A stretch of 64,000 nt of DNA, from NCBI GenBank assembly GCA_963969365.1, contig OZ017748.1:1922001-1986000 (forward strand), in the 5' to 3' direction. The translations under genes were made by a program, and so were the position numbers. The notes under the pieces are model-generated. The model searched no databases. It was not told where the DNA came from and worked only from the letters and a program-made list of their open reading frames with translations. The DNA is from Asterochloris sp. CNOR1. Lineage: Eukaryota; Chlorophyta; Trebouxiophyceae; Trebouxiales; Trebouxiaceae. This document shows positions 1 to 64,000 of this stretch, one piece after another; the first letter of the stretch is position 1, and the number at the start of each line of letters is the position of its first letter.

Positions 1-567
1 TGCCCGGGGGCCCACCACCTTCCCCCTGGAGCGCCTGCTGTCCAACTTTTGGAACATCCTGAGCAATGAGGCTGACCCTGACGTGGACCCTGCAGTGCTG
101 GCCAGGCAGCAGCAGTCTGCAGAGGTCTTCATGCTGCTGCGCTCCCTCGTCTCTCTGCGCCTCCTCTCTCAGGTGAGATAAGGCTGAGTGCTGTGCACAA
201 GGTGCAGACACTTTAGCTGTTTTGCCATGCCTCCAGTCAACTGGCTTCCAAAGAGCCTCCTCTGCAAACAAGCTCAGGCCCTGTGCTTTGCTCAGTCTGT
301 GGACTGCAGATGCTGCATGCTACCTGGACTTCATCTGCCTACATGCTGATTACTGTGACCCCCTCTCTCAGACATGAACAGGCAATGCACTTTGCACAAA
401 CTGCCATTCGCTCGTGAGCGAGGCTTGATCAAGTGAAGGTTGCTGTGCAGGTGTCTGGAGACCTCCTGACAGATCCCACCTACAGATGTGAGATTTCAGA
501 TGGTCTGGCACAAACACTGGCCAGCAATGCCAGACTTGATATCAAAACTTACTTGCACTATGTTTGA
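1..567 (+). CDS. ORC5: Origin recognition complex subunit 5, 3' end (partial)
   Basis: Subunit of the nuclear origin recognition complex, which marks replication origins and loads MCM. Only the last two coding exons are in the window, 1-172 and 451-567, joined in phase by a GT-AG intron (173-450). The first exon reads FPLERLLSNFWNIL and then LLRSLVSLRLLSQ. The second reads VSGDLLTDPTYRCEIS and ends DIKTYLHYV before TGA. This matches from memory the C-terminal ORC5 domain of animals and plants, which has the same serine-glycine junction, the YKC-type motif and an aromatic-rich tail ending in a tyrosine-rich helix. The 5' part, including the AAA+ ATPase domain, lies upstream of the window. The next gene on the same strand starts only 152 bp after the stop. 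Confidence 0.82.
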
Positions 568-719
568 CTGAAAAGATTCACTGCTCCCCACCTTAGCCCC
601 TTTCATGTTTTTGCATGCTGTGTGACATGAATGTGCCTAGGGCAAGCATTCCAGACCTGCCAAACTCCTTCCCAAAAGCCTGTGCTCCTCATCAGACGTG
701 CCCTGAGCTCAGATCAAAC
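568..719 (+). promoter_or_regulatory. Short ORC5-CSN2 intergenic gap
   Basis: This 152 bp must hold both the ORC5 3' end and the CSN2 promoter and 5' UTR. I see no TGTAA signal and no clear TATA box. The compact head-to-tail spacing suggests the 5' UTR of CSN2 is short or that the transcripts overlap (inference). Confidence 0.35.
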
Positions 720-3700
720 ATGTATGACGATGACATGGAGGGTATGTGCTCTGGTCTGATCAAGGCTCTCAAAACACAGCAAGGGGTGTCACTCATGCAA
801 ACATCCCTGCAGACTATGGCTTCGAGTACTCGGATGAGGAGGTTCAAGAGGACGACATTGATATCGAGAACCAATACTACAACAGCAAAGGCAGGCACTG
901 TGATGTTTCAGCTGCGTCTCTCCTCAGGCCTCAAGGAGGAGAGATGGGCATGCCTGTCTGTGCAACTGCTACAATTTATCACATGTGTTGTGCAGGGCTC
1001 TTGGAAGGGTCAGACGACCCACAGGAGGCACTCAAGGGCTTCCGGGAGGTAGTGAAGATGGAGGAGGGCCAGGGCGAATGGTAGACTAGTTTTGTCGTGG
1101 TTGCCTGCAGCTTCACTGCTTTGATAGGCTGCTTGACATGGCTGGCCTCTGCTGCGCAGCACAGTTCAGGGGGTTACAGGTTGTGCCTCCATGTGCAAGC
1201 AGCAGCACGAGTGCCATGCCCCACACGTGCATGCCTGCAGGGGCTTCAAGGCGCTCAAGCAGGTGGTCAAGCTGCACTATCGGCTGAATCAGAAAGACAA
1301 GATGTTGGCATCGTACAGGTGGGCTCGCTCTGGTGCCTCAACAGCTGCCTCATCAATGTGCTCTCATGTCGCGCAACCCGCTGTCTGGCCTCATTGGCAA
1401 AATTGCTGCCTCAGCCAGACATGGCCCTGGTACACCCATGCAGAGCAGTTCTCAGCCAGAAGGTCTGGTGAACCCCTGCACACCTGACGCCACCCAGATG
1501 CCAGCCTTGCCCTGCATCCCAACCCATTGCTCAATGCAGCACATGCTGCCTGGTGCTGCAGGGAAATGCTGGGCTACATCAAGACGGCAGTGACGCGGAA
1601 CCAGAGCGAGAAGAAAATCAACAGCCTGCTGGACCATGTGTCCACCTCATCAGATGTCGGGCTCCTGCAGGCAAGCTGAGACCTGGGCGTTGGGGGCAGG
1701 TGCAGAGGGCATGGCTGTCGACAGGCGGCAGCCTGGGGCCGCCAGGCAGGGTCATCTCAGGGGCCACGGCCTGCTGTTGCTGCTGTCAAAGACACTGTGA
1801 CTACTGTTCTGAATCTCTGAGCGGTGCTAGAGCCAAGCACCTCAGGGCCTGTGCTGACAGGTAGGGCCTGCCCCTGCGGCCAATGCATGCTCTGCAACCG
1901 AGCTCACACTAGACGCTAAGACTGCTGAGCAGGCAGCAAACATCAACCAGCCCACTGCTTGTGCAGGACTTCTACAAGCTCACACTGGAGGCGCTGCAGG
2001 AGGCCAACAATGAGCGTCTGTGGTTCAAGACCCAGCTCAAGCTGTGCGGGCTGTGGTTCCGCCTGGAGGAGTTTTCCCGCATGCAGCGCATCCTGCGGGA
2101 GCTGCATAGGTCAGATCCTGTCCGGTCGTCTGGTGCATGCAGGCCCCTGGCCAGGGTAGATGCTGGTCACGGCGGGCCCTGGGTATGATTGTGATGCTGT
2201 GCACGCCGGGCCTGGCAATCATGTGCCTTCAAGCCATCAACAGGAACCCATAGTGAACCACACACCGGCTTCATAACCGGCACACCTCTGGGCAGACAGG
2301 CAGGACCTCTTTGTCCCCCCGCTCGTGTGTGCTCATCGCACTGGTACATTCGCTGGCATGCACACGATGCTTGCTGCAGGCCACGAGCACACTTGACAGC
2401 ATCAGCATGGTGCTCAGCATGCACACTGTGCCTGCTGCAGGTCCTGAGCACATCTATGGCATCACCACTGTGCTTAGCATTCCACACTGTGCCTCCCACA
2501 GGTCATGCACCACAGAGGGCGGGCAGGATGACCTGAAGAAGGGCACCCAGCTGCTGGAGATCTATGCCCTCGAGATACAGGTGAAGTCCATGTGAGTGCT
2601 TGATCTGCACTGAGCCGTGCTGGATGAGCATACAAGCAGCAGAGGCAGCAGGACTTTGATATTACTGGCCCAGACTGCAGGTGTGTACACGCATGAGGTG
2701 TGCCACTTGAAATCCTGCACGTGCAGAGAGGGGAGGCGCACATGCAAGTACACATGGACAAACACAAATGGATGCGCCTGAGGTGAAGGAGCTGCACCAG
2801 CGTGGTCTCATGTTGCTGCTGAGGCACACAACTACTTTGCCTGCAGATGTACACGGAGATGCGCAACACCAAGAAGCTGAAGGAGCTGTACCAGCGCGCT
2901 CTAACGATCAAGAGCGCCATTCCCCACCCGCGCATCATGGGCATTATCCGTGAGTGCGGGGGAAAGATGCACATGCACGAGCGCCTCTGGAGCGAGGCTG
3001 CCACAGACTTCTTTGAGGTGACTTCAGCAGGTGTCTTGGTCCACACCAGCTACTCTGGTGCTTCAAACGCCGAGATTGATTGGGGCACACAACTAAAGCT
3101 GTCGGGCTTTGAATACAGATACATGTTTGGGTGCAAGTTCTCTCCACAATACATGCACATGCGCCAGTGGACACATGCCTGTCGAGTGAGGCTGCCATGG
3201 ACTTCAGCCTGCAAGGCTGTGCTTGCAGACTGCAAGCAGGACAGCACAGTGGTCCTTCTCTGCACACAGGGTGAGGTGAACCTGCTGCCAGAGAGGGGTT
3301 GCTGATTGCTTTGGCAGCACTGATGTGTCAGGCGCGACCTTGTGCATCTTGATGCAGCATCAGTGCTGCCCCACTCTTCAACTTGAGCTGGGAGCGCCAG
3401 CACGGGAGCCAAGCCCTGTAGCTCAGCCTTTACACCGTATAGGTTGCACAGCGGAGCTTTGAACCTGGCTCATGCTGCAGGCGTTCAAGAGTTACGATGA
3501 GGCGGGGGTGATGCGGCGCATTCAGTGCCTCAAGTACCTGGTCCTGGCCAACATGCTCATGGAGAGCAATGTAGACCCCTTCGATGCTCAGGTGGGGCAT
3601 CTCTGCGGTGGGTGGGAGAGGTATGTCGCTGACAAGGCTGAAACCACAATGTGGCACTTAAGTAGGCCAGCCTTTGGCCCAAATGCATGCAGCTGCCCAG

Positions 3701-5809: not shown

Positions 5810-6083
5810 CACACCTCAGTGTCACTTGTCAATGCATGCAATCATGTCAAGCATTTGCACTTGTAAAGGAGAGGGGCACTGGGGGTGCTTTCGACGAAAT
5901 CCAGTCGATGGGGCCTGCAAGGTGCTGCTGAAATCAGATTGGTTAGCAAGCCCTAGCAATATTTAGGGCAAAGAATGTTCACTGGGGGCTAGCCCTAGCC
6001 GAGGGTGTGGGACAGAAACAGTTAGAAAGCTGATACTCCTGTAGTCAGCCATGGCTGTCTGGTGTGATCCCCTGCCGTTGGGT
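5810..6083. other. CSN2-COP1 convergent intergenic region
   Basis: These 274 bp separate two convergent stops. Apart from the CSN2 poly(A) signal near 5862 I see no gene or RNA. No minus-strand TGTAA for COP1 was found here. Confidence 0.5.
5862..5866 (+). terminator. TGTAA poly(A) signal of CSN2
   Basis: TGTAA lies 52 bp after the CSN2 stop, in the context cttgtaaagg. TGTAA is the usual poly(A) signal of chlorophyte algae. This is a motif match only. Confidence 0.5.
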
Positions 6084-9000
6084 TCATGATGTCAGCTGGA
6101 AGATTTTAATGGTTCCCTGCGAGTTGGCCGCGAGCAGCACTTGCGAGCGCGGTTTCCAACAGACAGCACTAATGAATTGGTGGGGATCCTGCTGGCTGGG
6201 CAGGGGAGGCTCCCCCGGCAGGGAGAAGAGGCGCCTCGACATGGGCTTCGACATGGCCTTGTAGTACACGTACACCTGCAGCAAAGGCAGTTCTCAAGGG
6301 AGCCGGCGTGGCAACATCATTGCATCAGCATGATGCTACACATAGGACCGGCAGCAGATGAGGCAGCAGCACATGGGCTTGGACATGGCCTTGAAGTACG
6401 CATATACCTGCAGCAGAGGCAGCAAGTCACCAGCTCCACAGAGGCATTGGCTTTGGAGCTCATTAAAGCCTAATCTTGAGGTACACCTGGACCTGTAGCC
6501 AGGTGTACCTAGCTCTGTATGAACATCAGCATGCGGACAGTTGAGGACCAAGCGTGCAAGCTCACATTTGCTGCTGCTGGCGGGCTGCAACGAGCAAAGC
6601 AGCAGCAAGGGCCTTGGAGCAAGGCCAACTGGCAGCGCTGCAGATGGGCCTGGCAGGCAAGCTGCTCCTGCCCTATGCCACATCAGGGTGCTGCATGAGG
6701 CAGTCCGTATGCTTCCCAGCCTCCCTGCACATCGTCAGCCTTGCTGCCGCAAGCGGAGATGTGGCCATCCACAAGTCTTATGACACACACCAGACAGGCA
6801 CAGCAGGGACTCCACCAGGTTGGTCCCACTGCTGCTCGTGGACCAAGAGACAAAACACGGCACGCAGCAACGGCAGGCCCCCACACCTCATTGGTCTCGC
6901 TGCCGCAGGCAGTGAAGTCGCCGTCCACGCTGAGCCCCACAAAGTTCTTCTCATTCATGTGGCCGCTGAAGGTGCGTGAGGCACGGTGGGCCTGCACATC
7001 CCACATGCGCAGGGTGCTGTCCGTGGAGGCTGACACCAACTCCCCTGCTGACAGGTAGCGCACATAGGAGACGGCCTTGCGGTGCCCTGCACAGGCACAG
7101 TGATGCCCTCATGGGACTGGGTGTGCACAAGCTTTGAGGTCTGAACTGCTGCGTCAGGACCCTCGGAGACTGGAAGGTCTACACACACATTGGCTGCCTT
7201 GCTGCCGCTGGTCCTGGTTGCTGCTGACCTGGCACCTGAGTTTGCCTGAGGTGACTTCAGTTGATCCTGAACAAGAGTACCCAGGACCAGCGGGCGAGAT
7301 GTTCAGATGTTGAGGGCTGCAGACAGAGGAGGGCCAGCAGCAGGAAGGCCAGCAACAGCGCATACTCCAGCCTTGCAGCCACAAGCAGGGTAGCCCTGGC
7401 TATATCAGAGAGAGCTTTGAGCCAGTCAGCTAGGCAGAGAATCATGTGATGCCATGGACCCAGCCCTTGCAACCCTTGCAGGCCAGGTCATGATCCAGCA
7501 GCCCCCTCCTGCACTGCGGCTGGGTGCAGGTGCCTCACCCTCAAACACGTGCAGGGGTGCCCGCGCCTTGCGCAGGTCATACAAGTGGACATTGTGGTCT
7601 GCTGAGCCCACTGCAATCTCATGGCTGCACCCAGGGTTGTACTTCACACAACACACATTGGCCTTCATGTCAATATCCAGCACACTGTTCTGCTGGTTGG
7701 TAGACCAGACCTGCAAGCAGGGAGGGGCCATGCTTAGCGTTAGGGAGACACTGAATCAGCACACTGTCTGCCAGCTGAAAGGCGGGAGCATCCTCAGACA
7801 GCAGTGCCTTGCAGGCAGTGCAATCTGGCAGCCTGCTGGGCTGGGTTAATGTGCACTTAGACAGCCAAGCCCTTCCCGGACTGTGGCACGGCCACTCCTT
7901 TGACTGGACCACGCATCTCTGATGTCAGGCCGCACCACATAATCTGCCCGGCAGGGGCACCACCTAGAGCGATGAGCACGCAGCCCGACGCAATCACTGA
8001 CAGCGGGCCAGCAGCAGACTTTCAACCAGGGTCGGGGGGGGGGGTGGGGGGGGGGGTCCGGGAAAGCCGCAGGGATGGTGGGGCATCGGCGGAAGTGTCT
8101 CGTGTGCGCCCACCAGCTGGCCATCACCTGAAGGTGCCATCAGACCCAGCACTCCCCTCACTGCTCACCTTGACCCAGCCATCATCCGACCCTGTGACCA
8201 GCAGCATGGGGTCTGTGTGGCACGAGTCGACGCTCCAGATGCGTTTCTCGTGGGCCTCATATTCAGCCACACTCTGGCTGGTGGCCACGTCCCACACATT
8301 GACCACGCCCTCGTAGTCACTGCTGGCCAGGTGGCTCTGCACATACTTGTTCCAAGAGAGGCAGGACAGCTTCGACCGTGTGTTGACCTCCAGCGCGGGG
8401 CAGTGCGTCTCAGTGTGTGGGTTGCGCAGCACGTTGGCATACTCATACACGCTGATGCGCTTGGACACGCCCGCCGTGGCAAACACCTGCAGCATGTGGG
8501 CAGGAAAATGGGTGCAAAGGGCCACTGCTTGGAGCAACTTTGGAATGTCCCCAGCGGCAAACACCTGCAGCGAACAGGCAGCAAGGACCATGTTGGCTGC
8601 CAGTGCTCAGAGCACTGGGGGAATGCGCGCGCCAGAGACAACTGGGGAGGTGAAGCGTTGCATGATAAACTCAGCCTGGAGGGGCACAGCAAAACTTCAG
8701 TGGGCAAGACTGCTGGACTCCACACCTGCACACCTGCAGCACCAGAACGCTTGAAGCCATGGACGTGCATCTATTGGCACTCAGCAGTGGCCTGGCATGT
8801 CAGGCAGGTACTTCATCGCAACCAAGCACAGTGGCGTGCTCGCAGCTGCAAGATGCAGGGTGTTGCATGACAGTACTGGTGCAACACCAGCAGAACAGCA
8901 ACCCCTAGCCAGAGGAGGCTGTCCCAGACTCTGACTCCATGCCTATACATGATTTCCTGCCTGGTGCCCCCCCTCAAAACTCCAGTCAGCACATGGAAGC

Positions 9001-12000
9001 ACTGACTTGGACAGGCATGGCCACAATGCATGAGCACAGACCCCTGGCCATGCTTGTCAAACAGAGTTCTGCATAGGGTGCTGTTGCTCAGGCAGGAGCT
9101 GGCAAGCGTAGCATGGCATTCAGGACAGCAGCGCAGCAGGAGCGGCCAGTGAATACCTTGCGCTTATCACAGCACACGTGGCTGTCACGGATCAACCCAA
9201 CATCAGGCAGGGTTCTGCTGTTTGGGCGGGAGGTAGCAGCGCTGTGTGTACGGCCGGGCTTGCTGTCACAAACAACCTTACTGGTAACACAGCTCACCTG
9301 GCTGTCCCGATCGAACTCGATGCTGGACAGGATGCTGCTGCTCTGGCGGGAGCTTGCGCGTGGCAGCTGAGCCACCATCTTCAGGCGGCTGCACTGGGTG
9401 AACACGGAGAGCACACGCGAGAACTCTGCAAGGCCCTGGTCCGAGACGGCCGCCCCGCCTGCTGCCACGTCGCCGCTCTGCGCCGGGCGCTGACCACCCC
9501 TCTCCTGTTGGGAGCTGCTGGGGAGTTCCTGGCTAGCACCTGAGAACCCGAGAGGGTTGCCCTGCTGGAGGTCAGAAGGGGGAGCTGCCAACCCAGTGGC
9601 AGCATGGTCCTCAGCTGCTGGTTTGCCACTCCAAGTGGCCAGGCTCGTCTCCTCCTCGCGCATGCGCTTGCGCCCAGGGGAGGCAGGCTGGGCGTCTCCA
9701 TTCACAGCAGTGCCGGCTGAGGCAAGCTCAGGCTCGTCCTCTGCTGTGCCTGGCTGCTGGGGCAGCTGGCAGCGCAGGCGCAGGTAGCACTGCTGCAGGT
9801 CCTCCATCTGAGACAGCACCCGCCGCCGCTTGGCCCTGCAGGGCAGAACTTGTCCACGAGCGATAGGGCAGAACTTGTGTCTATGAGCGACAGGGCAGAA
9901 ATTGTGTCCACGAGCGATAGGTGAGTCCACGCGGACAGGCATGATTCCGAGGCTGTCTGGGACAGCGCTCACTATTGCTTGCCCCTGCTACGATGACCCT
10001 GTGTCGGTGAGGACATTAGTGAATCAAGGTCTGCCTCACAGATTTCAGCGCAGCGGCGCAGTAGCACCAAGTGACTCCGATGGATGAAGCAAACAAGAGT
10101 TCTGGTGATGGCAGCGGCCTGACACGCCGGCCATCGTGCAGCTGTTGATGGGCCGACACTGAAGGCAGTCAGGTGCAGCTGCATCGCTCACGTGGAGGCC
10201 TGCTCGCTCCCGGCGGAGCCTGGCTGGCTGACGTCGCTGTAGGTCAAGTCACTCAGGCTTGCTCCAGAGCGGGTGCCTGTCTCCCCTGTGCTGCCTGCAG
10301 GCAGCCACAAACAAAGATGCGGCCTGGCAGCAGCAGCAGGCCACAGCTGGGCTGTGCCTTTGAGCAGCAAACACAAGTCAGGGATACCCATGAAGCAGAG
10401 TTGCCCCAGCCAGGTGAGGCTACCTCTAGAGCTGCAAAAGGCATCCACATCCATGTGTCCTACTCAGTCAAATGCTGCCTGCTGGTCACAGCCATCACCA
10501 TCATACTACTGCCCTCTGCTGCTAGCATGAAAGACTCCCCTGGCTCCATGGCACAGGAGTGCAGGCTGCCTCTGATGTGCATGGAGCTCCGCGCTGCAGA
10601 GGCACCCAGGGACTGCCTCTGAGCACTCAGCAGGCAATGCACGGCACCAGCCCGCCTGTGAGGAGGCCTGGGCAGCACATGATTGCTTGTGGAAACATCG
10701 AACTGAGATGCTCGGCAGGACGTGTTGGAGGCGAGCTGCTCACGTGAGAAGGCTGCAGCAGATAGGTGCCTGTGAGGCACCCACACTGCCGGGCCGCTTT
10801 GCTGAGGGGCGTTGAGCTCACCTGAGGACCGCGAGAAAGCATGACGCTGCAGCTGCTGCTGCTGCTGCTGGAATGCCTGGAAGGCCATGTGCCGCGGGTG
10901 GATGTGCACGTGGCTGTCGGGGGACAGCTGGGTGGGCAGGGGTGGGGGCAGCAGGGAGCCTGGCTGCACCCCATTCAATCTCGCCTCCTGAGACGCCTGC
11001 AGCACACACAGCCAGCACGGAGCTGCTGCCAAGCCCTCCTGAATCAGCAAGAGCTTGGAAGACATCTCCAGTTGGTGGACGGTGCCGTCCACATAGGGCC
11101 ACTGTACATTGCTGTGGTCTCTGCTGGCGGCAGCACACTGAGAGGGCACCAAGTTGAGCAAAGACTCCACTGCAGAGCCAGTTTTAGTGACCTGAACCCA
11201 CCTGTCGCTGCAGGTCATGCCAGGCCTGGTCCGCAGGCTGCCGCAGGCCGGCCGCAGGCACTGCCGTGGCCGCAGAAGGCCCCCCAGAGGAGGCTGTGAC
11301 AAGCCCCTGTGCCGCGCGGCTGGGGCCCCCCTCTCCTACAGTGTCCTGCTGTACGGGGATCTGCTGGTCCTGCAGGAAGCAGGGAGGTCACCTTTGCAGG
11401 GCGCGCCTGCAGGATGCAGGGATGCTGACCGGGCCCTGCAGCAAGCTGCCCCTCAGGCCAAGTGCTGGTCACATGCTTCCTAGTGCCGGTTGGGCCTCAT
11501 GACGCCCTCAAGGTCACACATGCAATGAGATTGCATTGGCTGCCTTGAAGGACTGCAGGCAGACCCTGGCAGTGGACCAGAGCAGAATGATTGAGCCGGC
11601 AACAGCTAACAATCACTTCCAGGATGCTCACCTGGAATGCGGGGCTCATCTGCACGCTGGGCCACGGCTGCAGTGGCAGGCTGTGCATGGTGACAGAACG
11701 GTGACTCCGCCTGGATGGGGGGCCATTGCCGCTGGCACTCAGCTGCGCCTGGCTGGTGTGGGCTGCCTGAGCGGCCACCGCCTGCTGTTGGATGTTCTGC
11801 GCCTGATCAGCCTCCTGGTGGGAGTTGGCCTGAGCAGCAGACGTCCCAGGCGCTGGCTGCGGCTCTGCAACAGTGTGGGGCCTGCCAGTGAGGCAGACAG
11901 GCCATCTGCTGAGCAGAGGACATCTCAGGTACTAGACTGGGACTTGCCCGCTGTCAGTCAGGCTAAAGCAGGAGCTGCACAGAAAATGGTGCCCCATGTG

Positions 12001-19398: not shown

Positions 19399-22300
19399 AT
19401 GTTTGCCCAGGGTGGTGCAGCCACAGTCAGCATCGCTTCTGCAGGCCATGGCTCACCACTCCACTCGCAGGCCTGCCAGAGAAGGCACAATGGCCCATCT
19501 GCGCCACAACAGGCAAGACTTGGCGACAGGAACATGAACAGGAGTCGGAGAGGCGCTCTGCAGGTGAGGACAGTCAGCAATGCTACAGCTGGCCAGGCAG
19601 CTTAGAGGTGGCAGCCAAGGTCTGCTGCTGCTAGCAAGCAGCAATGGTACTGCTGAATTACTCGCTGACACATTGCAGGTCCAAGCTGTTGCGGAGCTCA
19701 CTAAGCAGAAGGGCGCTGGCAAGGACGTCTCAGTCCAGATTGACAATAAAACAGACAAGCATTACACCAAGATTATGCTACAGGCAAGCCGCTGCCCGAG
19801 AGTCGATGCTGCAGTTCCTCTAGTGTAATCGCTCCTGTGCAGCCCGCATTTTGGGATTGAGGTGCATCACACCCAGCCAATTGACGGCCCTCTGGTGCTG
19901 CTGGCTGTGCCTTCGAGTGACTGCCAGGAAGGACTAATACATCAAGGCTGAACGTCCTGCAGGCACCAAGCCGGGCAGGTCTGCTGACTGCTGTGACAGA
20001 CACCCTGACAGCGCTGGGCCTGGAGGTTGGCCGTGCTCAGGTGGACAACGACAATGGCAGCATGATCAACACATTTTTCGTACAAACGCTCAGCGGCAAG
20101 AAGCTCGAGTCAGGTGCAACACATATGCTGTCGCAGGCCTTCCAAGGGGCGGGGATTAAGCAGAGGGTGGCGTGGGGGTTGGCTTGCAATGTCCACCTCT
20201 GCAGAGTGCGATGGAAACTTGTTTTGCACCTGGCAGGCAGCTAAAAAGTGCACGGGCGCTGAGGCGGGACTGAGTCAGGTGCAGGGGTGATGCATCCTGC
20301 AGGGGACAGGAGGGGCAAGTTGTGCTAGCGCTGCTGCTTCAGGAGGCAGAACACAGACCTCCCACGGTTGCGCTGGCATGGAGCCTGCCTGGCATAGGAG
20401 TGATGTGGCACAGAAGGCTGCTGCGAGATGCTGCTGCCAAGCTGCGGCGTTGCTGAATCTCTGTCCTGGACAGACCTTAGCAGAAAGCAGCATGATGTCC
20501 TGTGCGCCGTGGCGAGGCCGCAGCACGCTGCAGAGAGTGGCAGCAGTCTCTGCCTCCGCCCATGCCTGGAGACAGCAACCACTGCAAGCCAAGAGGGCAG
20601 CCTCCACGCAGGAGCTGGCTGTGCAGAATGCAGCAGCGACTTCACCAATGGAATGCTGAGCGCCCCTGCCTGCTGCAGGCAAGGAGCCTGCAGGCACCCA
20701 AAAGTCCATTCTGAGTACAGCCTTGCCTCAAAGTCTTGCCTTGTCCCCACAGCCCACAGGATGCCAGCATGCAGGGGGGCCTGAAGAGTGCAAGCGCAGC
20801 TGCTGCCTCCTCCTTGCAAACCAGGCATTGACAGAACAGGCCCCTGCTGCTGCAGGCGACAAGCATATCCTGTAGGCACCCAGAAGACTGTTATCCGCAC
20901 AGCCTTGCCACGTGCCCACCGCCTGCCTGCAGGCGAGGAAGCCAGCGTGCAGGAGCGCCTGGAGAGTGTCCTGGAGGGCCCCTTCAACAACCTTGCCAGC
21001 AAGCGCCCCAAGCTGAGCTATTCAGCCTCGAGCCTGGCCGAGGACAAGAAGAACTTCTTGTACACACTGATGGGTGAGGTTTCTGCAGCAGGGCCGCAGA
21101 GTCGCTGGCAGGATCCAGCTGCATTGGGCAAATATGAAGTTTCAGAGCAGCACCCAGGGCTGCCTCCTGGAGCAGGCACAGGGGCGGAGCAGGTGCCAGT
21201 CCACCTCCCGGGGGACCAGCAGGCGCTACCTGCAACCAACTGTAGTGAGGGCTTCAAGCAAGCTGCAGCAGCCTGCTGAGGGCAGCTATGGGCAGGCAGC
21301 ACATTACCAGTGCATGCCAAGGGCAATGGCCCACTTATTAGCTCTGGGTCCGGCAGGACGCCAGGAGCAACCAATCTGATGCACTGTGCAGCACCTACAG
21401 GCAGGCAACCTGACTGCTTGTACACGTTCATGTATGAGACGTTGCAACACCCATCAACCTGCAGGGAGCAGCTGTGGGCATGGCAATACACCACAGTAGT
21501 GCATGCTGGTTGTGGATTGGCAGCTTGGGCGCTGGTGCAGGCCCATGAGCGAAGGCGCGCAGCCAGCTGCTCCCCGTATTATGTTTGTATGCACAAGGAC
21601 CTGGGTAGTGCATGGACTGTGTGGCCAACGTTGTGCCCTGGAGGGTGTGGCAATGCTACGATCATCCACAATTGCCGCAGATTGAGGACCCTGCTGCTGA
21701 TCATCCTCGGAGTGGGATTCACGGCCCCTGTGCGATCCACCCAGGTGTCACTTTTCAGTACAGCAAGTTGAAACATCAGAACACACTGCTGCCTGGTATT
21801 TACGCAGACTCCCTACTGACAAACAGGAGGCACAGTATGAGCAGAGCTCCATGCCCAGCTGCTTGACTTCATCTCCCTGCTGCGCTGCAGACTCCTACCT
21901 CACCAACGACAAGCGCAGCATTGAGCAGAGCATCGTGAATCACCTGGAGTACACACTTGCACGGAATCGCTACAAGGTTGACAACCAGGAGGCCTACTCA
22001 GCCACAGCCCTCTCACTGAGGGACCGCCTCATTGAAAGCTGGAACGACACCCAGCAGCACTTCAAGTGGGTTTGCCGCACTGCTGCTTCATGTAATGGGA
22101 GGTGTGCTCAGCCACAGCTCTGAGCCTCTGGGACTGCCTCAATGAGAGCTGCACGATCACCCAGCAGCACTTGGGGGCATATATCTGCATGTTGCATTGA
22201 AGCAGCATGACTGGAGTAGCAACAGCATGGCCGAGGGGCGTGCACATGCCCCACGCCGCCCATAGAGGCTGCCCCAAGCACAAACTTGATGCACACGCAT

Positions 22301-39400: not shown

Positions 39401-42400
39401 ACGTCTGGCAAGCATGGCTCAGGCACTAAGCAGCTGAGCAGGTGCAACCCAGCAAGCTGCTTGAGCACGGCTTATAGCGGATCTTGGGAGGTCAAGCAGA
39501 CCTCAAGTTGTAAGGCGAGCACGCCTGCATGCATCACCATGATCTCTGACCCAGTGAACGGCATGCCCTCTCCGCCTCCCTGACGCTCAGCAGCCTGACG
39601 AGGGACTGCTCTGTTCACCCTCCCCTGAGGCACAGGCAGAGCCTGCTTACATTGCCAAACGACCCAGGCAGCTGTGCCCACCTCGAGGCGCTTGTCCGAC
39701 AGGAACTGCTGCTGCTCTCGGAGGGCAGCCACCTCCTTGGCATGCTCTTCCCGCACGAGGGCCATCTGCTCCGCCGCTGCGGCTGCAGCCTCCTCGTGGG
39801 CGCTCTGCTCCTCGGCCCGCCGCTCAGCCACACTGGCGCTGCGCGACCTGCAGTTCCAGCTCAGCATGTCCTGGTACAGACAAGACACAATTCGAAGCAG
39901 TAGTGTCATGCTGTGAAAGGCTGTCTGATGTCAGCAGCGCACACAAGTCACACAGCAGCCTCGCCTTCACACCTGCATTGCTGCATGGGGGACACAAGTC
40001 ACAAAAGCAACCTCGCCTTCACGCCTGCATTGCTGCTTGGAGGACAGCACCAGCACAGGCAATGGGTCATGCAGCACAGCTGTTGCAGCAGTGGCGCAAA
40101 TCATGTTTGCCCGTTTGGACCGCACTGCCGCCCAAAGCAGGCCCGCTGCAGTACCTCGGGCATGCAACCAGAACCTGCAAGGATGACCAAGTAGTGTTGC
40201 AGGTGTTGAGCGGCTCTGCAGCAGTGCTGCAGCATGAGGTGAGTGGCTAAGATGGGGAGGACATGTTACCCACCGCAACATCCCAGGCAGACGCTCGCTG
40301 GCCTCCACCAGCTGCTTGCGCAGCTGCTCATTCTGCTGGCTCAGGTCTGCCGCCTGGGCCTCTGCCCGCCCAACAGCCTCTTCCAGCCTGTATAACGATG
40401 CTTGCTGCTCCTCAGCCGCCTTGCCCCGCAGCTCAGACAGCTGAGCATTTAGCTTGCGCATCTGCAGGCTCAATAGTAGACTGTTGTGAAGCCCAGAACC
40501 TGAACCAGGTTCAGCCCTGCCCACAGCTCAGACAGCTTAGTGTTCAGTTTGTGCACCTGCTGCTCCAGAACAACTTCAAGCCGCCTTGATGTAGCAGCAA
40601 CATGCAGCTGCCTCTCCTCAGCTTGGACATTGGAGCATTCAGCTTGCACGGCTCCAGACCCAGACCACCAGGCAGCTCAGCAGAAGGACATGAGCATACC
40701 CTTTGCTTGTGGCCAGACAAGGCTCTCACCTTGTGGCAGCCACGGCCACCATATGATTGCACAAAACGCCTTGTATGCATGCCCAGCAGCTTTGCTGAAA
40801 CAGAATGCAATTGACCCAACACAAAGGATCTGAATCATCAGCAATCGTCAATTGTTGCATCCGTTGCTAGTTGATGTGGCAGCCTGCTGGCCCCTGCTGT
40901 GCAGCAACAGTGGTCACCTGCTTGAGGCTGGGGTGTCCATGATCAGCTGCAGGTCCCTGCTGTGCAAAGGATGCAGCCTACAAGCCTCCACACTACCTTG
41001 GACAACTGATGAAAATTGTGGTGCTCTGCAGCTGCCAACCGGTCCCCTCCGCCTGCCCTGGCCAGTCAGCAGTGCCTTTAGCCGTCTGCCAGCATGAGCC
41101 CTGAAAGTGTGTGGCAGCACATCCACCTGCTGGAAGCTGTGGTGCTCTGCAGCCGCCTGCCGGTCCCTGAGCCCGTCGTAGTCGGCCCGCAACGCCTCCA
41201 GTTGCGCCTCCAGCTCCCGCGTGCGGATCCTCTGCGTCTCCAGGGCAACCTCTGCCAGCCGGCGCTGCCTGTCGGCGCTGCTGGCCTGCACAGGCATAAG
41301 ACGTCTCATCACAGGGCCCAAGCGAGAGATAGTCATGGTTGTCTCAGTCTTCTGCTGCCTGTGCCTGCTGTGGCCTGTGCTGTTATGTTATGTGCATGTG
41401 GCTTGGTGAACCAGAACAACTGCTTTAACCAGCTCGCACCTGCAAGTTGAGCCCTGGTGTCGAGACGGGAGCATGTGGGGTTGGGATCATGGTTGCCCTG
41501 AGACCGACAGGCTGTCAGAGCTCAGGCTCAAGTGTGCCTGCTTGAGTGACTGCGCACATGGCAGCAGAGGGAGGACCTGATGTTGCTGATGCAGCAGCTT
41601 TATAGAGGAAGACAACGCAGGCCTACCTGCAGCTGACCCTGGATCCTGGGGTTGGCACTCAGGCCGCCATACTGAACATGGGAGGCTCCATCTGACGCCT
41701 GCAAGGCAGAGCAACAGCCTCGAAGTGGCAGCCTTCAGCCCACAGCACAACTGCGCCACTGGGCAAGCCGGCACCAGATACTGTTGCTGCAGAGCTGATG
41801 CCTGCTGCGTGGCAGCTTCCCTGCACACAGCACCAGTGACAGCACTGCAATGCAATGCGTGCAGCGCACCGCCCTCTGGGCCGGGCAAAAATGCCTGAGC
41901 TCTGCATCCGATATGGGTGACGTTTGACACATTGCAGATGGTCATGGCAGCTTGACAGTCAGCAAGGCAGGCACGAACCTGGGAGCCTCCAGCATCTGGG
42001 GAGGCGCCCGGGCGCCCGGGTGACAGGGGTCGCGCCGGTCCAGGGCGGGGGCTGAGGCGGGCTAGCTCCCCCCTGCCCCCGTCCCCTGCGCTGCCAGAGG
42101 CTCCGCCCTCATAAGGTCCCATGTTGCGCGTGTAGTTGGGGCCACCCACCTGCAGGGGGCACCAGGGGTTGATGGGACAAAGGGGCGCTGGGTTGCAGGA
42201 AGACTGCAGGGTGGCTGCAAACAAAAATTCACCTCATGTTTGCTTTCAGGCAAGCTGTGGTTGGTCAGGGTGCCGTGAGGGACAGGAGGGGGCCATCAAA
42301 GAGGGCACATGTCAAAGGTAGGCCAGCAAGCTACCCACCCAGGGCTGGCAGACCCCAGCTGGGGGCCTTGCAGGCATCTGGTGAACCGCAGGCAGTCTCG

Positions 42401-46062: not shown

Positions 46063-49000
46063 ATGGCACTGCCAGAAGATGGACCAGCAAGGCGGACAAG
46101 GGCTAGGACTGCCCGTCAGGACTCGGCTGCCGGCCCTTCGAAGTCGGCAGCTGGGGTGCTGCAGAGCGGATTAGCTCATGCCTGGGCTTGGCTGACGGTA
46201 AAAGCTGATTGCTGCAACCATCACTTGCATGAGCTGCTGACTTTTATCAGGCCTCTGCGCCACACTGCTGCTTGCTCCAGGCTCAGAGCAACTGCACGGT
46301 GGCTTGCTCCTGTTTGATCAACTATTCATGCAGCGTCGCAGTACAAATCTGCTGGCGGGATGTTCGCACCTGCATCATCTCACCAGCTGCTTTGCCATGC
46401 CCTGCAGCCCACAAAACTCCGGCCTGCACAGCTGGGGGACGAGGAGACGGAACACTTTCAGGATGCATCAGGTGATTTCCATCCCTTTGCAGGGGCGGTG
46501 TCTCGACTGACTGTTGTCAAGCACCGCTTGACACAGTGCATCATGAGGAGGCATGCGGATGGGGTCATTGCACAGGTCTCCTCCACCGTGACGAAGGGCT
46601 CCTCACTCAGCTGGCTGCAATACGTGCTGCTCTTTGCAACTACCGCTGCTGTCCTGCAGAAGTGATAGAGATCGAGCTGGAGGCAGGCCCATCTTCAAAG
46701 CCAGAGGTGAGCTCGTCTGCCCTGCTGCCTGCCGCTGCATCAGGGGACTTGGAGCAGCCAGCTCCGATGGCCCCCAGAAAACAGACATCTGCCTGCACCT
46801 GCAGTAAGGGAGTGAAAGCACTGGGGTGGCATTCCATTGAGCTTTTGCCTGTCGCAAAGGCCAATGCATGCCCAAAGGCAGCAGGCAAGCAGCAAGCCAT
46901 GCTGACTGGCCCTGCACAGCTGCTGCAGGCGATGGAGGAGGACCAACTTGCTCCAGAGGGCGACGGCAGTGGTCCACCTGCGGCTGAGGACCTGTCAGGG
47001 TCTGGTGAGCTCCCATTGGCAGCCTGAAGCTTCAAGCTATACAGAACTCAGTGAGCTCAGAGGTGTTGGCAGGAGACGCACCCATTTCAAGCCGTTTTGG
47101 ACTTTCTTGACGGCCAGGTCACAGTGCCAGTCTGCCCAACACTACGCGCGCCCGCATTGCTCTCAATAGGGCAGGCACAGTCCAAAAGAGCAGCTGCAAC
47201 ACAGATGGATCTAGCTGTGCTGCCTGAGCCGCTTAGCAGTGCTTGAGATCACCTGCGCTCTGAGGAGTGGGAAAATGCAATCCTCGCGTCCGCTGCAGAC
47301 CACAGTTCTGTTGGCCCCAGAGACGGCATCCAGGATGCATTGCTACCCCAGCATGTCCATCTTTGCCCTGCAGACCACAGGCTTGCCAGCTCCACAGATG
47401 GCCTCATGTAGCAGGCGCCGGGCTTCTCAGGGTTCATAAAGAGACATTGTCGCCATGTGTGCCTTGCAGACCAGAGCCCTGCTGGCCCCACAGACGGCGC
47501 CGTGGCTGCCAGCTCTGCACGGCAGCAGCAGGCCCTCCCTGAGGCACCACAGGGACAACCCACGCCTGAGGCGCTGCAGCAGGAGGACTGCTTCAGGCTG
47601 GTCAATGGGCGCCTCCTGGCCACGGCCGGTGCTGCCGCCAAGTTCCTGAGCCTCAATAGGCCAGGCTCTGCGCTGCACGCTCTGGCAGAACTTGCAGCTG
47701 AGAGGGACCCTGTTGCCCTGGAGGCAGCCACCGCGGCCACCTGGGCTGCTTCTGACACCAGTGGCGGCGAGGCTCATGACCAACAGCTGCCAGATGGGCA
47801 CTGGGATGAGCTGGAGGCGTGCGCTCGCCCGCTGCCTGGGGGCGCCCTGGGGGAGGGGACCTGCTCAGGCTGGGAGAAGCTGCGGCTTGCAGAGCCTGGC
47901 AGGGGCAGCGCAGTCATAAATGTTGTGCGGGGCCTGCACAGGTGATACCAACTTGCAGCGCGACCCCTGCCCAACAGCTTGACATTCTGCATGCCTGTGC
48001 TGCACAGGCGCCACCACGTTGCATGACACCACCAACAGCATGCAGGCTTTAGTCCAGGCGTCTGCTCAGTGCCCTTGAAGGCATGAGGAGTCTTTGCATC
48101 TTCACTGCAGCGCAAGAGCGCCTGTGCCAAAGCGTCTCCACGCCTCCTCAACAAGGGGTGTGTTTGTCCAGCACAGTCAATGTGAGGCCCACATGAACAG
48201 GCCAGTGGCCTTCTTAACCTGGAGTCCACCCTAATAATTTGCTGCACCCGTAACGTGCAGCTTTGTGCGCAAGCGCAAGCACCAGGGTGAGTACCACGGC
48301 ATCCCCGAGCCAGATGATGTCGTGCGGTGCTACACCAAGTTCCTGGAGGACCATCCAGAGGCTCGTGAAGAGGAGGTGCACCCACGCCAGGTGGGTGAAT
48401 GGTGGGCAGCGAGGTGACACTCTCGTGCAAGAAGGGTTGCTGGTAGGAGGCCTGCCCAGGAAGCGGAGGTGTAGCCATGCAACATGGGCACCGTTTCTTG
48501 TGCACCAGGGCACCAATGACGTGAAAGGGGGTGGTGCGCCATGTGAGGGGCCAGATGAACAGGGCCAGCAGCAAGTCCTGCCTTGCTGGCACAGTATTTC
48601 TGTGGTAGTCGTTCTTGTTAGCTTGGTGAGAGGAGGTGCAGGTGCGCAAGCTGGGTGCTATGGCCTGAGCAGGAGTCGCTTGATGCAGGAAGCCTGTGCT
48701 GTGTGCAGGAGGTGCATACACCGGCAGCTGCAGCTCAAAGGAAGTTACTGCATGTGGTGGCTGGTCTTTGGGGGTGCTGGCACACTGGGGTGCAGTTAAA
48801 CATGGTGGATATAGACTCTGAAGCCCTGGGAGTGGGTGCCTGCGTGAGGTGGAGCGCGTGCAGACCTGAGGCGCAAGGCATCCAGCAGCAGGGGCCACCG
48901 TGCGAAGTGGCGTCAGCAGGAGCAGTTTCTGCGCAAGTCAGGCTCAGCGACATTAGGAAACAGATTGGGTGAACCTCCACAGATGAGAGTGATCAATCTT

Positions 49001-55329: not shown

Positions 55330-58300
55330 ATGACTTTGCAGTTCACACTCAGAAGCTTCCCTCAAACAGGTGAGCTGATCTCCCTGCTATCTGGGTGCCA
55401 AAATAGCATTGCTACACAAACAGTGAAAACTTTCAACATCACTACAGGGACGCTGAAAGAGGCATGTGGACTGCCGTTTGCTACAGTGGTGCAGCCATAT
55501 GCTCAGCTGGAGCACCTGCCTCTGGAACAGACTCCCACCGTGACAGAAGCAGAGCTTGGGCGATGCCAGGAGTGCTATGCGTAAGCCGCCGGCATGCCGG
55601 TGTGCCCGTCTAAGGAGCCATTGCAGGTAAACACCCACACTGTCTGCCTGCAGGTACATCAACTGGCATTGCTCCTTCGGCCCCACAGGCTGGAACTGCT
55701 CCCTATGCGGGGCGTTTTGTCCTTACAAGACCCTTAAGAATCGCAGGTCAGCTGAGGCTGGACGTCCTGCCCTGCTGCTGCACCCTAAGTGCCATGCAGA
55801 CATGCCCATTGGCATGTAGTCATGCTCGTCCCGCATTGGGCAAGCCATGGCCTGTGGTACCTGTCCCGCAGTGCGCAGTTGGCAGTGAGCCCATTGTATG
55901 CATGCTCGCAGGTATTCCCGCGCTGGTCTGCGTGGCAGCCTGCCAGAACTGCATGAGTTTGGCGTGGAGGTGCTCTGCCACCCGGAAGCAGAGGTGGGAA
56001 GCTCGTTACTCCAGCCAGTCCACATTCACCTACTGCGGCGGCCCTGCCGCAGGGGCTGTGTCGCAGGGGCTGTGTCCGAGGGGCAGCACACCAAGCAGTC
56101 CCCCACACCTCCCCCTGGCCCCTGCCTGCAGCCCACATGTCTGAGGAGGAGTTCGTCCCTGCAGGACCCAACCAGCATCCCAGAGGTGGCCGGCCAGGCA
56201 GTGTTCCTTGCCTTGGTGGACCTCAGCGGCGGTGAAGACTACTTGGAGCTGGTCAGGGGTGCCCTGCAAGCAGCGCTTGAGGCACTGCCGTCCACAGCGC
56301 TGTTTGGGCTGATCACCTTTGCCGACCAGGTCTGCAGACACCGCCATGCCTGCAGCTGTACCCCACACACTAAGGTTGCCCCAAGCCGAGAAACTTTGCC
56401 AGCACCAAGCCGGAGCCCATGTGCATGGTGCCAACATCTGCAGGCGTGCCAAAAGCTCAGGCACACAATGCTGGTGCAGGGAGCAGCCTGGTAGTTGGTC
56501 CTTGCTGTGCTTCCACCCTTGGAGTGCCTTCATCCCAGGCTTCCTGCACGACCCATCCCTGCAGCTGCACCTGCCTGACATATAGGGGCGGCGCCCCAGC
56601 ATACATCCCGCTGAATGCAGCCTCCTTCCCTTCAGATGCACCTGCACAACAGGCAAGACCAGTACCTCAGCGTACGCTGTGTGCCCCCATCGCTACATTT
56701 GTGGATCCACCGACTCCCAGGCAGCCTTGGGTGCCCTGACCGTGCAGGCACACCTGAACGCTACAGCGCCGGCCCACACTGGCCTGCACTGCATGACCTT
56801 GTCTGTCTGTTGTGCCTTGACCCTTCCTGTCACCACTTTTCAGGCAGCCTGCCTGCCATGGCTGCACCTGCACGGCACGCAGGGGCGGCCGCCAAGAGCG
56901 CCCTGTTGCTCTCTGTCACCCTTGACCATCACTTGTACCACTTCAGGCGGCCCTCCCTGGCCCTGCAGGTGCACCTGCACGACACCCAGGGGCCCCGCCC
57001 CAGCGTGCGCTGCGTGCCTCTCTCCCCAGAGGCAGCCGGCCCCCCCACGCTGCCAGGGCTGGAGGATGCGCTCCCCTTGGAGCAGCTGCTGGCCCCTGTC
57101 GGTGCCTGCAAGGAGCAGATTGTGGCTGCACTGGACTGTTTGGACAGCCTCCTGCCGGATGGGGGCTTGGACAGTGCCAGTTCCTGTGTGCGGCCCTTTG
57201 GCGGGGCCCTGCAGGCGGTGCTGCGCTACCTGGGGTCGGGCGGCTCCACTGCTGGCAGCGCTGGGGCAGCCGGCAGGCCAGGCACGGCAGGAGGGGGTGT
57301 GCTGGACACTTCTGGTGTGTGCTGGCAGTGGCGCGAGCATCTGTGTATTTGCAGCCTGTTCGCCTGGAGCAGGCTCTGTGCAGCTGTGTGTGGCACCTTG
57401 CTCCGTCTGCCTTGCAGTCATTGCATGGCCATGTCCGCAGTCATCTTGCTTGAGTCCCTGCAAATGGCTGGCAGAGTCGCAGTGTGCCTCCAGCGTCCGT
57501 GGGTTCAGAACAGACATGTGCAACTGCAAGTCAGAGCTGTTCTATCAACATCCCGTCCATGCTATGCTCGCGACTGTTCAAAGGAACCACCACTGGGGCA
57601 CTGCCAGCTCCTGAAACCTTGCAGATTGCTGCTCCAGGTGCCAGGCTGCTGGCTTTTCTGTCAGGGCCCCCCAACCGCGGGAGGGGTTCCGTGCTGCGGC
57701 AGCAGCGACTTGGCGCACAGCAGCCGGCCAGGAGCGCCGGCATTGCAGACCCATGGATGTCCAAACCTCCAGCGCAGCAGCGGCAACCCAGCCCAAGCGA
57801 GGCAGCCCCCCAGGCGTACAGCCTGGACACCGGCCTGGAGGGTGCTTCCCAGGTGGGCCCCACCTTGTGACATGATTGGAGGTGGGCAAACAGCCTGCCG
57901 GTGCAGTCATGGACACAGACTCGGTGGGCGCTCTCCAGATGGATGTCAGGTGCTCCCATCAGTGCTCAGAGGCGCCTGCAGGCGGCAACAAGACTGCGCA
58001 TGCATCAATCTAGGTGGAGCCTCGGTGAGGGTGTGTGAGGCCCAGGCATGGCTCCTGTCCCAGGCCCAGCACATGTGCCTGCTGCTACCTGTGCTGATGC
58101 AGCCAGCCATGTGAAGTGGGGCTGCCATGCCCCACGTGACTGCACCCCTGCAGGAGAAGCAGGTTCCCAGTACAGTGGCAGCTTGCCTTGCAACAAGCGT
58201 GCCAGCAGAAGCAGCGAGAGCCCGATGGCGCCATGCATGACAAGCACACTGCAGCAGATGTGCCTGTTGCTGCCTGCTTTCGCCGGCAGCTTGCCCCTCC

Positions 58301-61300: not shown

Positions 61301-61695
61301 GTTTGCTGCGCCGCACCATCAACAGGCTGCGCCAAAGTCGACGCGTCACCCCACAGCTCAAGATGCTGCGAGGCAAGCCACCTGCTGGCTGGGTTGGCAG
61401 TGCCTGGACGCTCTCTGGCAGCTTCAAACAAGCCGGAGGACAGTGGCGCATCTGACATGTGCAGTCGTCCTGTCAGACTTCCCATCCTCTCTTGTCCGTG
61501 GCCTCTGTGCTCAGAGCACCTCTGTGACGTGTTGCAGGCGGCATTGATGATGTGGCGCTTTTCACCAGTCAGCTCATTGAGGAACCAGATGCAAGTGCAA
61601 CAAAGGATAACAGACAAGCACTGATGGGCTTCGTAAATTTTCTAGATCGCATCAGATGGGAAACCATTCAATTCATTGAACACAGTGCTGCATGA
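55330..61695 (+). CDS. SEC23/SEC24-like COPII coat protein, atypical plant SEC23 type
   Basis: COPII-type vesicle coat protein of 796 aa, closest from memory to the atypical Arabidopsis SEC23-like protein At4g01810. A zinc finger with C53, C56, C73, C76 (RCQECYAYINWHC, WNCSLCG) is followed by the vWA-like trunk from about 117 (QAVFLALVDLSGGEDYLELV, ALFGLITFADQ, MDIFAACPHSLDLQQL, GGSIYLYPVLED), beta-sandwich (RRLRIVTMAMPLAKT), helical domain (DPEVILTVLLHKINRAAEAE) and gelsolin-like end (ALITSGAPIFLLDSFTFLI, MGFVNFLDRIRWETIQF). Exons: 55330-55369, 55448-55580, 55654-55746, 55912-55993, 56165-56329, 56969-57314, 57638-57852, 58346-58537, 58928-59032, 59274-59464, 59779-60025, 60546-60755, 60951-61037, 61246-61372, 61538-61695. 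Two introns begin GCAAGC. No ATG lies closer to the N-terminal match than 55330. Its stop converges with the hydratase gene. Confidence 0.9.
56558..57030 (+). repeat. Four decayed copies of a SEC23-like exon start before the real one
   Basis: The real exon starts at 56969 (gtgcacctgcacgacaccca; VHLHDTQGPRPSVRCVPLSP). Upstream in the same intron are 56558-56610 (ctgcagctgcacctgcctga), 56632-56695 (readable as MHLHNRQDQYLSVRCVPPS), 56741-56805 (VQAHLNATAP) and 56858-56925 (WLHLHGTQGRPP). Spacing is about 75-115 bp. The copies vary in frame and splice-site quality. Confidence 0.85.
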
Positions 61696-61818
61696 GTTCT
61701 GAAACATGCATTGGGGGTAAGGGGTGCCTGTTGGGCTGCTGCCCCATGAGGACATCACAGGATTCAGAATTGAAAGTGCATTGGCAAAGGCCTGCAGCCA
61801 TCTGGTGCAGGCAGGCTG
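61696..61818. other. SEC23-like / hydratase convergent gap
   Basis: 123 bp between convergent stops. Nothing else seen. The 3' UTRs probably overlap. Confidence 0.45.
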
Positions 61819-63897
61819 TCAAAGAGCAGCACGCTCTCGCTCCTGACTGTCCAACACTCCTGGCTGGAATTCCACTGCAGCATTTGAGACGACCAAACTA
61901 TTTCGCTCGACAACCCTGGCCTGGAAGATGACCTTGATGGCGCTGACAACCCACATCCGTGTCTGCAGAGTCTCTCCAGGGAACACATGGCCAGAAAATC
62001 TTGCCTGCACGGTGCACATCACTGATCTTGCAGGTCCATTGCCAGTGCAGGCCACCCGCCAAGCATGGAACGCTCTTGAGCATCCTCATCCTACTGGAAG
62101 TGGGACAGCCTGTCTGTCACCTTGACCCATCGCAGGTTAGCTGGGTTGTCATGGCCCAGGGCCTGCAGCACATGTTTTGTGGAGAGCGCATAGGTGCAGA
62201 GGCCGTGCAGGATGGGGACCTCAAAGCCACCCTTGCCGCTGAACTCTGGGTCGATGTGTAAGGGGTTGTAGTCGCCATTGAGCCTGCACACATGAACAGC
62301 CACCACTGGCGTTTGCAGGCATGTGCATGGGGAGGAGGTCCAGTGCTGCGAGATGTCTGTGCACACAGGGAAAACAGCAGCCCAGGAGAACACTCCCCAG
62401 GACTGAGCAGGTGTGCAAGGAGCTGGGTCCCGCACGCGCTCGGGTGCCTCACCGGTACAGAGCCGCCTGCTCTGGAGAGGTTCTCTCCTCCACAACTGCA
62501 TCAGTTGGGGTGTCGGGGGGCTGATTGAGTGCAATCACATCAGCTCGGCGTGGCACGCTGGAGGTTGGGCCAAAGCCGCCTGCATCATCATGCACATGGT
62601 CAGGGCAGCTTGCCAGCATACACCTGTATGTATGGCTTTTTGGCCGGTACGAGTTCTTCAAGCCCACACGCACCTGATCCTCTGGCAAAAATCGTAAGCT
62701 CATTCTCAGCATACACCTGCACTGCTGTTGGGCATCGGTGAGGGGCATGAGCAGGGGTACTGGCCTCTACAAAGGTGACTTCATGCAGTGCCCATTCCTT
62801 GCAGCCCAGGGTGCTGACCTGGTCGGTGGCTGCATCGATGATGGTGGCTTTGGTACTGATGAGGGCAGCCTTGCCCTTGTCCACCATGTCCACCAGGCTG
62901 GGCATCACAACAAAGTCGCCTGGAAGCACAAGGTGAACGCTATGAAGCTGCACAATCTGCTTGGAGCCTCCAGCACACCTATCAGGCAGGCTTGGCATGC
63001 AGATAGGCCCCATGCAGAGCAATTCCAGATGAGGCGGTGTGTGCAGACCGTCCCAGCTGAGAGAAGGGCTTCTGACACAGACAGCCTCACCCAAGAGGCG
63101 CTCACAGCAAGGCATGCAGGCAGCTGCAGCTGGACTGTGTCAATACCTTCTGGAGGGAGTGGCTTATGCAACAGCAGGAAGTGCTCTCCATGTAGGAGGA
63201 GGCTCTGCATGGAAGAGGGACACAGACTCATGCATCAGCTGCCATCATCATGCATCAGCTGCCCAATTATGCTCACTGCATCATACTGCTGTATCACACA
63301 GCACTGTATTGCTATGGCCAGCTGCCTGCTTGGAAGCATACTCACAGGGTCAAAGGTCGGCAGAAGATCGGCAAATGGTACATGTGCTCTGTGCACTGAG
63401 GCAACAGGCCAGGTTGGGAGTGGGCCGAAGTGGGGGTGATTCTCGAACACATACTGCAGGGGCACGCCCAGATCAGTGTGGCAGGCAGCAACACCATCAG
63501 AAAGGTGTGCTTCAGGCAGTAGTCAGGAATGCAAACAGGAGCTCTGGCCAACGCAAGCAGGTGATCAATGGCCTGTCATGCTCATCAGCAGCTGCTTGCC
63601 TGGAGCTCCTCCCTCTTGCATCCACAAGAAATGTTGTAGAGTATGACGTCTCTGGGCATGTACCTGAAGCAGCAGGACGTGCGTGCAGGATATCTCTGGT
63701 GTGCAAGTGTAGCAAATGCAGTGTGACTTGTACCTCCAAGGCACAGCTTCATAGTTCCTGCAGGAAGAAGCTCAGCTCAATTCAGGTGGGGACACCGCTT
63801 GCCATGCAAGGTCCTGATACGAAAGGCAAACAGCAGATGCTGATTGGCTGGCCACTTGCCTGCCCTTTGCTGCATCGATGAGAGGACGATAGTCCAT
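61819..63897 (-). CDS. ECH2: Enoyl-CoA hydratase 2 (MaoC-like, double hot-dog)
   Basis: R-specific enoyl-CoA hydratase, which in plants (Arabidopsis ECH2) degrades unsaturated fatty acids in peroxisomes. The product is 295 aa against about 309. N-terminal half: YMPRDVILYNISCGC, YVFENHPHFGPLPT, LLPTFDP, SLLLHGEHFLLLHKPLPPE, MVDKGKAALISTKATI. Catalytic half: RTSPEQAALYRLNGDYNPLH with IDPEF (hydratase 2 Asp and His present), PILHGLCTYALSTKHVL, SGHVFPGETLQTRMWV, FQARVVERNSLVVS. Exons: 63897-63860, 63663-63600, 63453-63346, 63204-63147, 62919-62819, 62716-62674, 62579-62453, 62283-62121, 62004-61819; phases agree. The first two introns begin with GC. The C-terminus ends ERERAAL, which is not a standard SKL-type peroxisomal signal, so location is uncertain. 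Confidence 0.9.
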
Positions 63898-64000
63898 GAT
63901 TCCAAATCCAGGCCTCAGGCTTTGGTCAGGGATATCATTGGACGTTGCCTCCCTTTCTGGGAAAGTCTATGTCTCATGTCTCAGGATGTAGCAGGCGAGC
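63898..64000 (-). promoter_or_regulatory. Upstream of the hydratase gene
   Basis: Last 103 bp of the window, upstream of the hydratase ATG. Presumed 5' UTR and promoter; no motif recognised. Confidence 0.3.

Follow-up and report, generated by a model that had tools for sequence, protein, structure and literature searches.

Many introns of the green alga Asterochloris sp. CNOR1 contain decayed copies of the edges of their own exons. We confirmed that these copies are real and that they extend past the window, the 64,000-nucleotide stretch of DNA analysed here, whose positions are used throughout. At least one edge copy was found in 119 of 626 introns of at least 90 nt and in 44 of 64 genes, including 10 of the 15 genes counted in the window; the claim of an earlier, sequence-only reading, that introns hold copies of adjoining exon edges in at least eight of thirteen genes, was borne out in kind. 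The explanation we prefer, with a probability of roughly 0.8, is a dense accumulation of the products of a known short tandem-duplication process, whose remnants lie over gene bodies. This type of mutation is already known, and it is its density here that looks unusual.

The assembly comprises 56.4 Mb in 21 contigs. Our data set of 314 kb (58.5% GC) combined the window with 250 kb, taken as five 50-kb samples from five other contigs. Genes were predicted with a purpose-written two-strand HMM gene finder, trained on the 314 kb starting from 20 conserved peptides of the window. Predictions with fewer than 300 coding nt or a score below 15 were excluded (two of the 17 in the window, too short or weak), which left 64 genes above threshold with 828 exons (median 96 nt) and 764 introns (median 203 nt). 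Two strong exons flank 252 of these introns, while 512 have one weaker flank. The splice consensus learned by the gene finder was CAG/GTG at donors and CTGCAG/G at acceptors, the latter very sharp across the 314 kb (T 91%, G 95%, C 97%). Splicing is deduced here from the gene models and from four proteins of known structure, to which parts of the predicted COP1, alpha-glucan phosphorylase, phosphofructokinase and CSN2 products align. The models also contain errors, namely tiny false exons (e.g. 6487-6492) and a wrong CSN2 acceptor. Pfam returned WD40-type matches for one short stretch of the window and no match for a second.

Exon edges were aligned to their own introns with +1/-1 scoring and stiff gaps, after removal of the 138 of 764 introns shorter than 90 nt, and a score of at least 16 was taken as a copy. 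As the sequence-only reading had proposed, introns of other genes served as a control. Acceptor edges recurred in 70 of 626 own introns (11.2%), compared with 0.35% for other-gene introns and 0.48% for the inverted edge; for donor edges the figures were 58 of 626 (9.3%), 0.19% and 0.64%. In the high-confidence set, 52 of 228 introns held a copy of an adjoining edge, with 30 of 228 acceptor edges found in their own intron (controls 4/1368, inverted 2/228) and 29 of 228 donor edges (controls 5/1368, inverted 2/228). When edges were compared with the intron lying four positions beyond in their own gene, copies turned up in 2 of 880 cases.

These controls bear on the alternative that ctgcag-rich and CAG-rich DNA of shared composition simply resembles itself by chance. 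Introns do hold 4.87 CTGCAG per kb, and the weaker look-alikes picked out by eye may be coincidental. Under a looser scheme (+5/-4, gap 8/3) own exons stood out little (12.0% versus 7.6% for upstream exons at a score of 120); that scheme lets long chance alignments pass and was abandoned for the stiffer one. Under the stiffer scoring, however, the three kinds of control together lie at 0.2-0.9% and own introns at 7-14%, depending on the subset, which rejects chance for the strong pairs and makes it a most improbable account.

The copies are local and run in the same direction as their source. Self-comparison of the 314 kb at a threshold of at least 36 bits yielded 130 direct matches and one inverted match at offsets of up to 500 bp, and five direct matches beyond 1 kb, in agreement with the earlier description of collinear copies within a few hundred bp. 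The clustered BLAST matches had a smallest offset of 51 bp and a median cluster offset of 105 bp. BLAST probably hides nearer diagonals; a gapless diagonal scan at offsets of 12-400 found 128 clusters. Edge copies lie about 115 bp from their source, with median offsets of 113 bp for acceptors and 124 bp for donors. At scores of at least 18, most alignments extend over the junction (79% for acceptors, n = 57; 76% for donors, n = 51), and in crossing alignments identity is even on both sides of the splice junction. Copies had been said to include the AG or GT frequently, and the junction-covering alignments agree: AG is kept in 41 of 53 copies and GT in 30 of 47. An apparent over-retention of the acceptor motif was rejected, as it vanished once 12 aligned bases were demanded on each side of the junction (28 acceptor, 18 donor alignments).

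All four window regions searched against the 56.4-Mb assembly (very common words skipped) matched only themselves, consistent with the earlier statement that the copies are not a dispersed family. Introner-like elements, by contrast, place the same sequence at many loci. One search for relatives of a COP1 fragment among viral contigs found none. Assembly error is an unlikely source of the copies, because 82 of 93 pairs are 65-85% identical. Of the 93 repeat clusters, 29 come from the contig C18 sample, a number two to three times that in the other samples.

In CSN2, on the plus strand, an acceptor edge occurs three times in 61-bp steps (2356..2507; TRF period 61, 2.3 copies; self match 77%), with AG ends at 2379, 2440 and 2501. 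Protein alignment requires the last of these, with the exon starting at 2502, so that the two upstream are spare copies; both fit ctgcag better than the acceptor in use, and the gene finder picked the middle one. The homology-supported intron, 2110-2501, carries the same word, AG/GTCA, at both ends and has an atypical acceptor, cctcccacag. In COP1, on the minus strand, the first part of exon 6087-6275 recurs in decayed form inside an intron, at 6348..6422 (82%, 76 columns, offset 133). The source of this copy, at 6215..6290, was delimited from the sequence as the exon start plus about 15 intron bases. The spare acceptor, tgctgcag, is intact; the copy exon would begin at 6407 and reaches a TAG after 23 codons. 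A second COP1 pair (9155..9357; 67%, 83 columns, offset 120, own-edge score 28) joins the donor edge of exon 9298-9835, at 9275-9357, to an intron copy at 9155-9237.

The phosphorylase gene, on the plus strand, has a pair in its 5' part (20662-20790 and 20840-20968, within 20662..20968; 69%, 134 columns, offset 178) that surrounds low-confidence exons. Further on, the end of exon 21891-22065 (21988..22062, placed by self match, protein alignment and sequence) is repeated in the next intron at 22098..22172 (76%, 75 columns, offset 110), where the donor has been lost; an intron-only tandem pair sits in the same intron (22289-22349 and 22361-22421, within 22289..22421; 82%, 61 columns, offset 72). 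In phosphofructokinase, a plus-strand gene supported by PFK protein alignment, the start of exon 33424-33583 (33425-33485) has a copy in the upstream intron at 33311-33371 (pair 33311..33485; 72%, 61 columns, offset 114). The donor edge of the same exon, 33583/33584, is followed by copies at +53 (33612-33674; 37.4 bits) and +103 (33662-33693; 32.8 bits), within 33559..33693, and in the second, some 103 bp inside the intron, the motif gcag/gtggat at 33687 still resembles a donor.

On the minus strand, the acceptor edge of exon 36487-36783 of a coiled-coil-like gene (36764-36790) has a copy at 36879-36905, upstream in the transcript (36764..36905; 93%, 27 columns, offset 115), and the donor edge of exon 41127-41285 (41124-41197) has an intron copy at 41003-41077 (41003..41197; 72%, 75 columns, offset 121). 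A young intron-only tandem pair with a unit of about 51 bp (39941..40046, minus strand; 89%, 55 columns) was unique in the genome search. On the plus strand, the acceptor edge of exon 47470-47941 is preceded by two partial copies at 47294-47338 and 47357-47402 (47294..47509; 78% each), and that of exon 56969-57314 by three, at 56557-56600, 56628-56685 and 56815-56920 (56557..57027; 82%, 74%, 70%).

The strongest clue to the origin of the copies is their direction. For the 411 exons with both introns of at least 90 nt, a copy of the acceptor edge is found in the preceding intron in 58 cases and in the following one in 10, whereas a copy of the donor edge is found in the following intron in 52 cases and in the preceding one in two. 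The copies contain exon as well as intron sequence, and they resemble their source equally on both sides of the junction, so the template was genomic DNA and not spliced RNA. We propose that small head-to-tail duplications, mostly of 50-200 bp, would strike gene bodies with no evident bias towards exon edges. Where the duplicated unit straddles a border, the protein would stay unchanged as long as splicing uses the outer copy, which is the second of two acceptors or the first of two donors; the inner copy would turn into intron and drift. A duplication spanning an acceptor would thus leave its spare upstream and one spanning a donor would leave its spare downstream. To this extent the earlier proposal of small tandem duplications with one edge kept is supported: the copies are local, direct and junction-crossing, and the outer site is retained.

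Drift of the intron copy while the exon is held is supported by the spread of mismatches over all codon positions (0.227, 0.214 and 0.272, pooled and with frame taken from the gene models), with a small surplus at the third. The same figures bear on another reading, in which the copies would be living alternative exons, arising by tandem exon duplication and used in mutually exclusive or poison-exon splicing. Several copies have intact acceptors or donors, and the 10 of 411 acceptor-edge copies on the far side of the exon are what whole-exon duplication predicts. Nevertheless, mismatches at all codon positions run counter to a coding constraint on the copy, the copies are partial and mostly one-sided, and the COP1 copy soon runs into its stop codon. 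Tandem exon duplication takes in a whole exon with both splice sites, whereas mainly edges are found here; whole-exon cases in single genes are possible, and as a general account we judge this reading improbable.

The form of the pairs fits tandem duplication to differing degrees. Several intron-only pairs of high identity have a copy length close to the offset, as in a true tandem repeat, and the ratio of length to offset is near 1 in many intron-only pairs. In many exon-intron pairs it is below 0.6, and the copy often fails to fill the offset although identity exceeds 80%, which counts against a simple tandem. It must be assumed that not every exon-intron pair is a plain tandem, and that the intron part has decayed or the insertion was only partly tandem.

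Tandem duplication has also been invoked for the birth of introns from an exonic AGGT segment (the Rogers model). That process shares with ours a duplication that carries splice signals, and a spliceosome that chooses among the copies, but it makes new introns, whereas here existing introns lengthen. Donor and acceptor do share CAG/G, and the CSN2 intron begins and ends at AG/GTCA. Against this, the donor-acceptor register of the 764 introns is flat: mean identity is 0.2585 compared with 0.2587 (sd 0.0021) at other shifts, and a local score of at least 16 is reached in 0.13% at shift 0 compared with 0.04% (sd 0.07) elsewhere, with none at 20. Intron creation by duplication therefore leaves no trace in this register, in which old births would no longer be visible, and we consider it a very unlikely source of the copies.

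Under the duplication process we favour, exon borders need not be special. Per million eligible pairs of bases, at offsets of 40-300, exon-intron repeats number 5.16 and intron-intron repeats 4.05, a ratio of 1.27 (bootstrap 95% 0.96-1.67); the high-confidence subset gives 3.95 versus 2.96, and rates are higher, at 7.99 and 5.25, around low-confidence exons and introns, where the models are least sure. A random-placement test does show a border excess (93 of 132 matches versus 66.1 expected), which could arise if the exon copy decays more slowly. A preference for exon edges is not clear, and the earlier suggestion that duplication is particular to exon-intron boundaries finds no support in these densities. 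Since selection holds the exon, pairs that contain one stay recognisable for longer and would be the first that a reader notices. Exon-exon pairs are as dense as the others (1.41 relative to intron-intron, 0.8-2.14), which counts against our explanation because selection would be expected to remove duplications of this kind; part of this density may be due to false exons. The exon-exon class may include false exons or whole-exon duplications, and its offsets show no excess of multiples of three (8/20).

The distribution outside genes raises the further question of whether the duplications are tied to transcription and so confined to genes. With default gene ends, intergenic density is 0.21 that of introns (0.08-0.38), and none of the 132 matches is intergenic, where 11.2 would be expected; under a setting that allows more gene ends, however, intergenic DNA reaches 1.99 per million against 2.52 for high-confidence introns. 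As the intergenic deficit depends on this setting we do not claim it, and we regard a link to transcription as rather unlikely.

The sequence-only reading had described a continuing source of intron length. The best-pair identities of the 93 clusters, in 5% bins from 60 to 100, number 4, 20, 23, 20, 19, 4, 2 and 1, so that 7 of 93 pairs reach 85% identity or more. A simulated constant rate, passed through the same score threshold and assuming simple substitution and one fixed exon rate, puts 33-35% of pairs in that range. Supply at an unchanged pace is therefore not supported. By class, pairs of at least 85% identity make up 3 of 19 intron-only, 3 of 54 exon-intron and 1 of 20 exon-exon pairs, and the intron-only pairs by themselves are not decisive on tempo. 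The gapless survey, which favours short good stretches and has no matching simulation, places 30 of 128 clusters at or above 85%, a milder deficit. Losses after duplication should not leave young pairs rarer than old ones within one genome, and we take the deficit as a sign that the process has slowed recently; the bulk of the duplications that can still be detected appear to stem from an earlier, more active period.

Among known molecular routes, the best fit would be end joining that follows a pair of nicks, close together and on opposite strands. In rice, insertions have been described as short tandem duplications produced when staggered nicks are repaired by end joining (Vaughn and Bennetzen 2014, summarised in PMC7407515), and PMC8355091 reports short tandem duplications from paired nicks in mouse and human cells. 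Like those products, the repeats described here are direct, local, tens to hundreds of bases long, and tandem or partly tandem; nick-repair duplications are known as new insertions, however, whereas here old, decayed copies have accumulated across many genes. Their breakpoints are too old for microhomology to show. CpG is heavily depleted throughout the 314 kb (observed/expected ratio 0.33 for introns, 0.35 for intergenic DNA, 0.47 for exons) and TpG and CpA are raised, which suggests heavy CpG methylation and much base-excision repair; as a guess, such repair at CpG could supply the paired nicks. Replication slippage or unequal exchange might have made the same duplications, and we hold this to be a serious, if less probable, alternative: orientation is exclusively direct and some arrays have three copies, as expected of either process, but many pairs consist of two copies and apparently lack a shared seed.

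Sequence outside exons that repeats an exon (at least 80% identity, within 700 bp) is equivalent to 2.27% of exonic bases, against 0.01% at control offsets. A comparable published measure is 0.08% in fly, 0.06% in worm and about 2% in human, over far longer genes (PMC9013439); the match to our measure is rough and the methods differ, so that a density above fly and worm is offered as a pointer. The tandem exon duplications and degenerate intronic exons of that study, and those treated in the Exonize paper (PMC12343006), are likewise exon-like sequences in introns of the same gene, but what we find are mostly edges and not whole exons. Among the literature matches listed, none describes, by its title or the opening of its abstract, an alga with such a density of duplications, and the papers on the Asterochloris and Trebouxia genomes do not use the word "tandem" in their main text. 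Internal gene duplication affecting exon-intron structure was reportedly found to be ubiquitous by Gao and Lynch in 2009 (cited in PMC4974935). The duplications seen here resemble it in lying inside genes and in changing exon-intron structure.

More tentatively, a large part of intron length in this alga might consist of fossil tandem duplications of each gene's own exons and introns, left by a past nick-driven wave, with decoys at about one edge in ten influencing splice choice genome-wide; we think this broader proposition somewhat doubtful. Each copy is a potential decoy splice site. CSN2 carries a warning for annotation, as its stronger-looking upstream acceptor is a spare copy and was nonetheless chosen by the gene finder. 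With one copy held by the protein and the other drifting, introns become a dated record of duplication, and a single genome could serve to measure how introns lengthen, which decoy splice sites they carry and how fast the mutation process runs.
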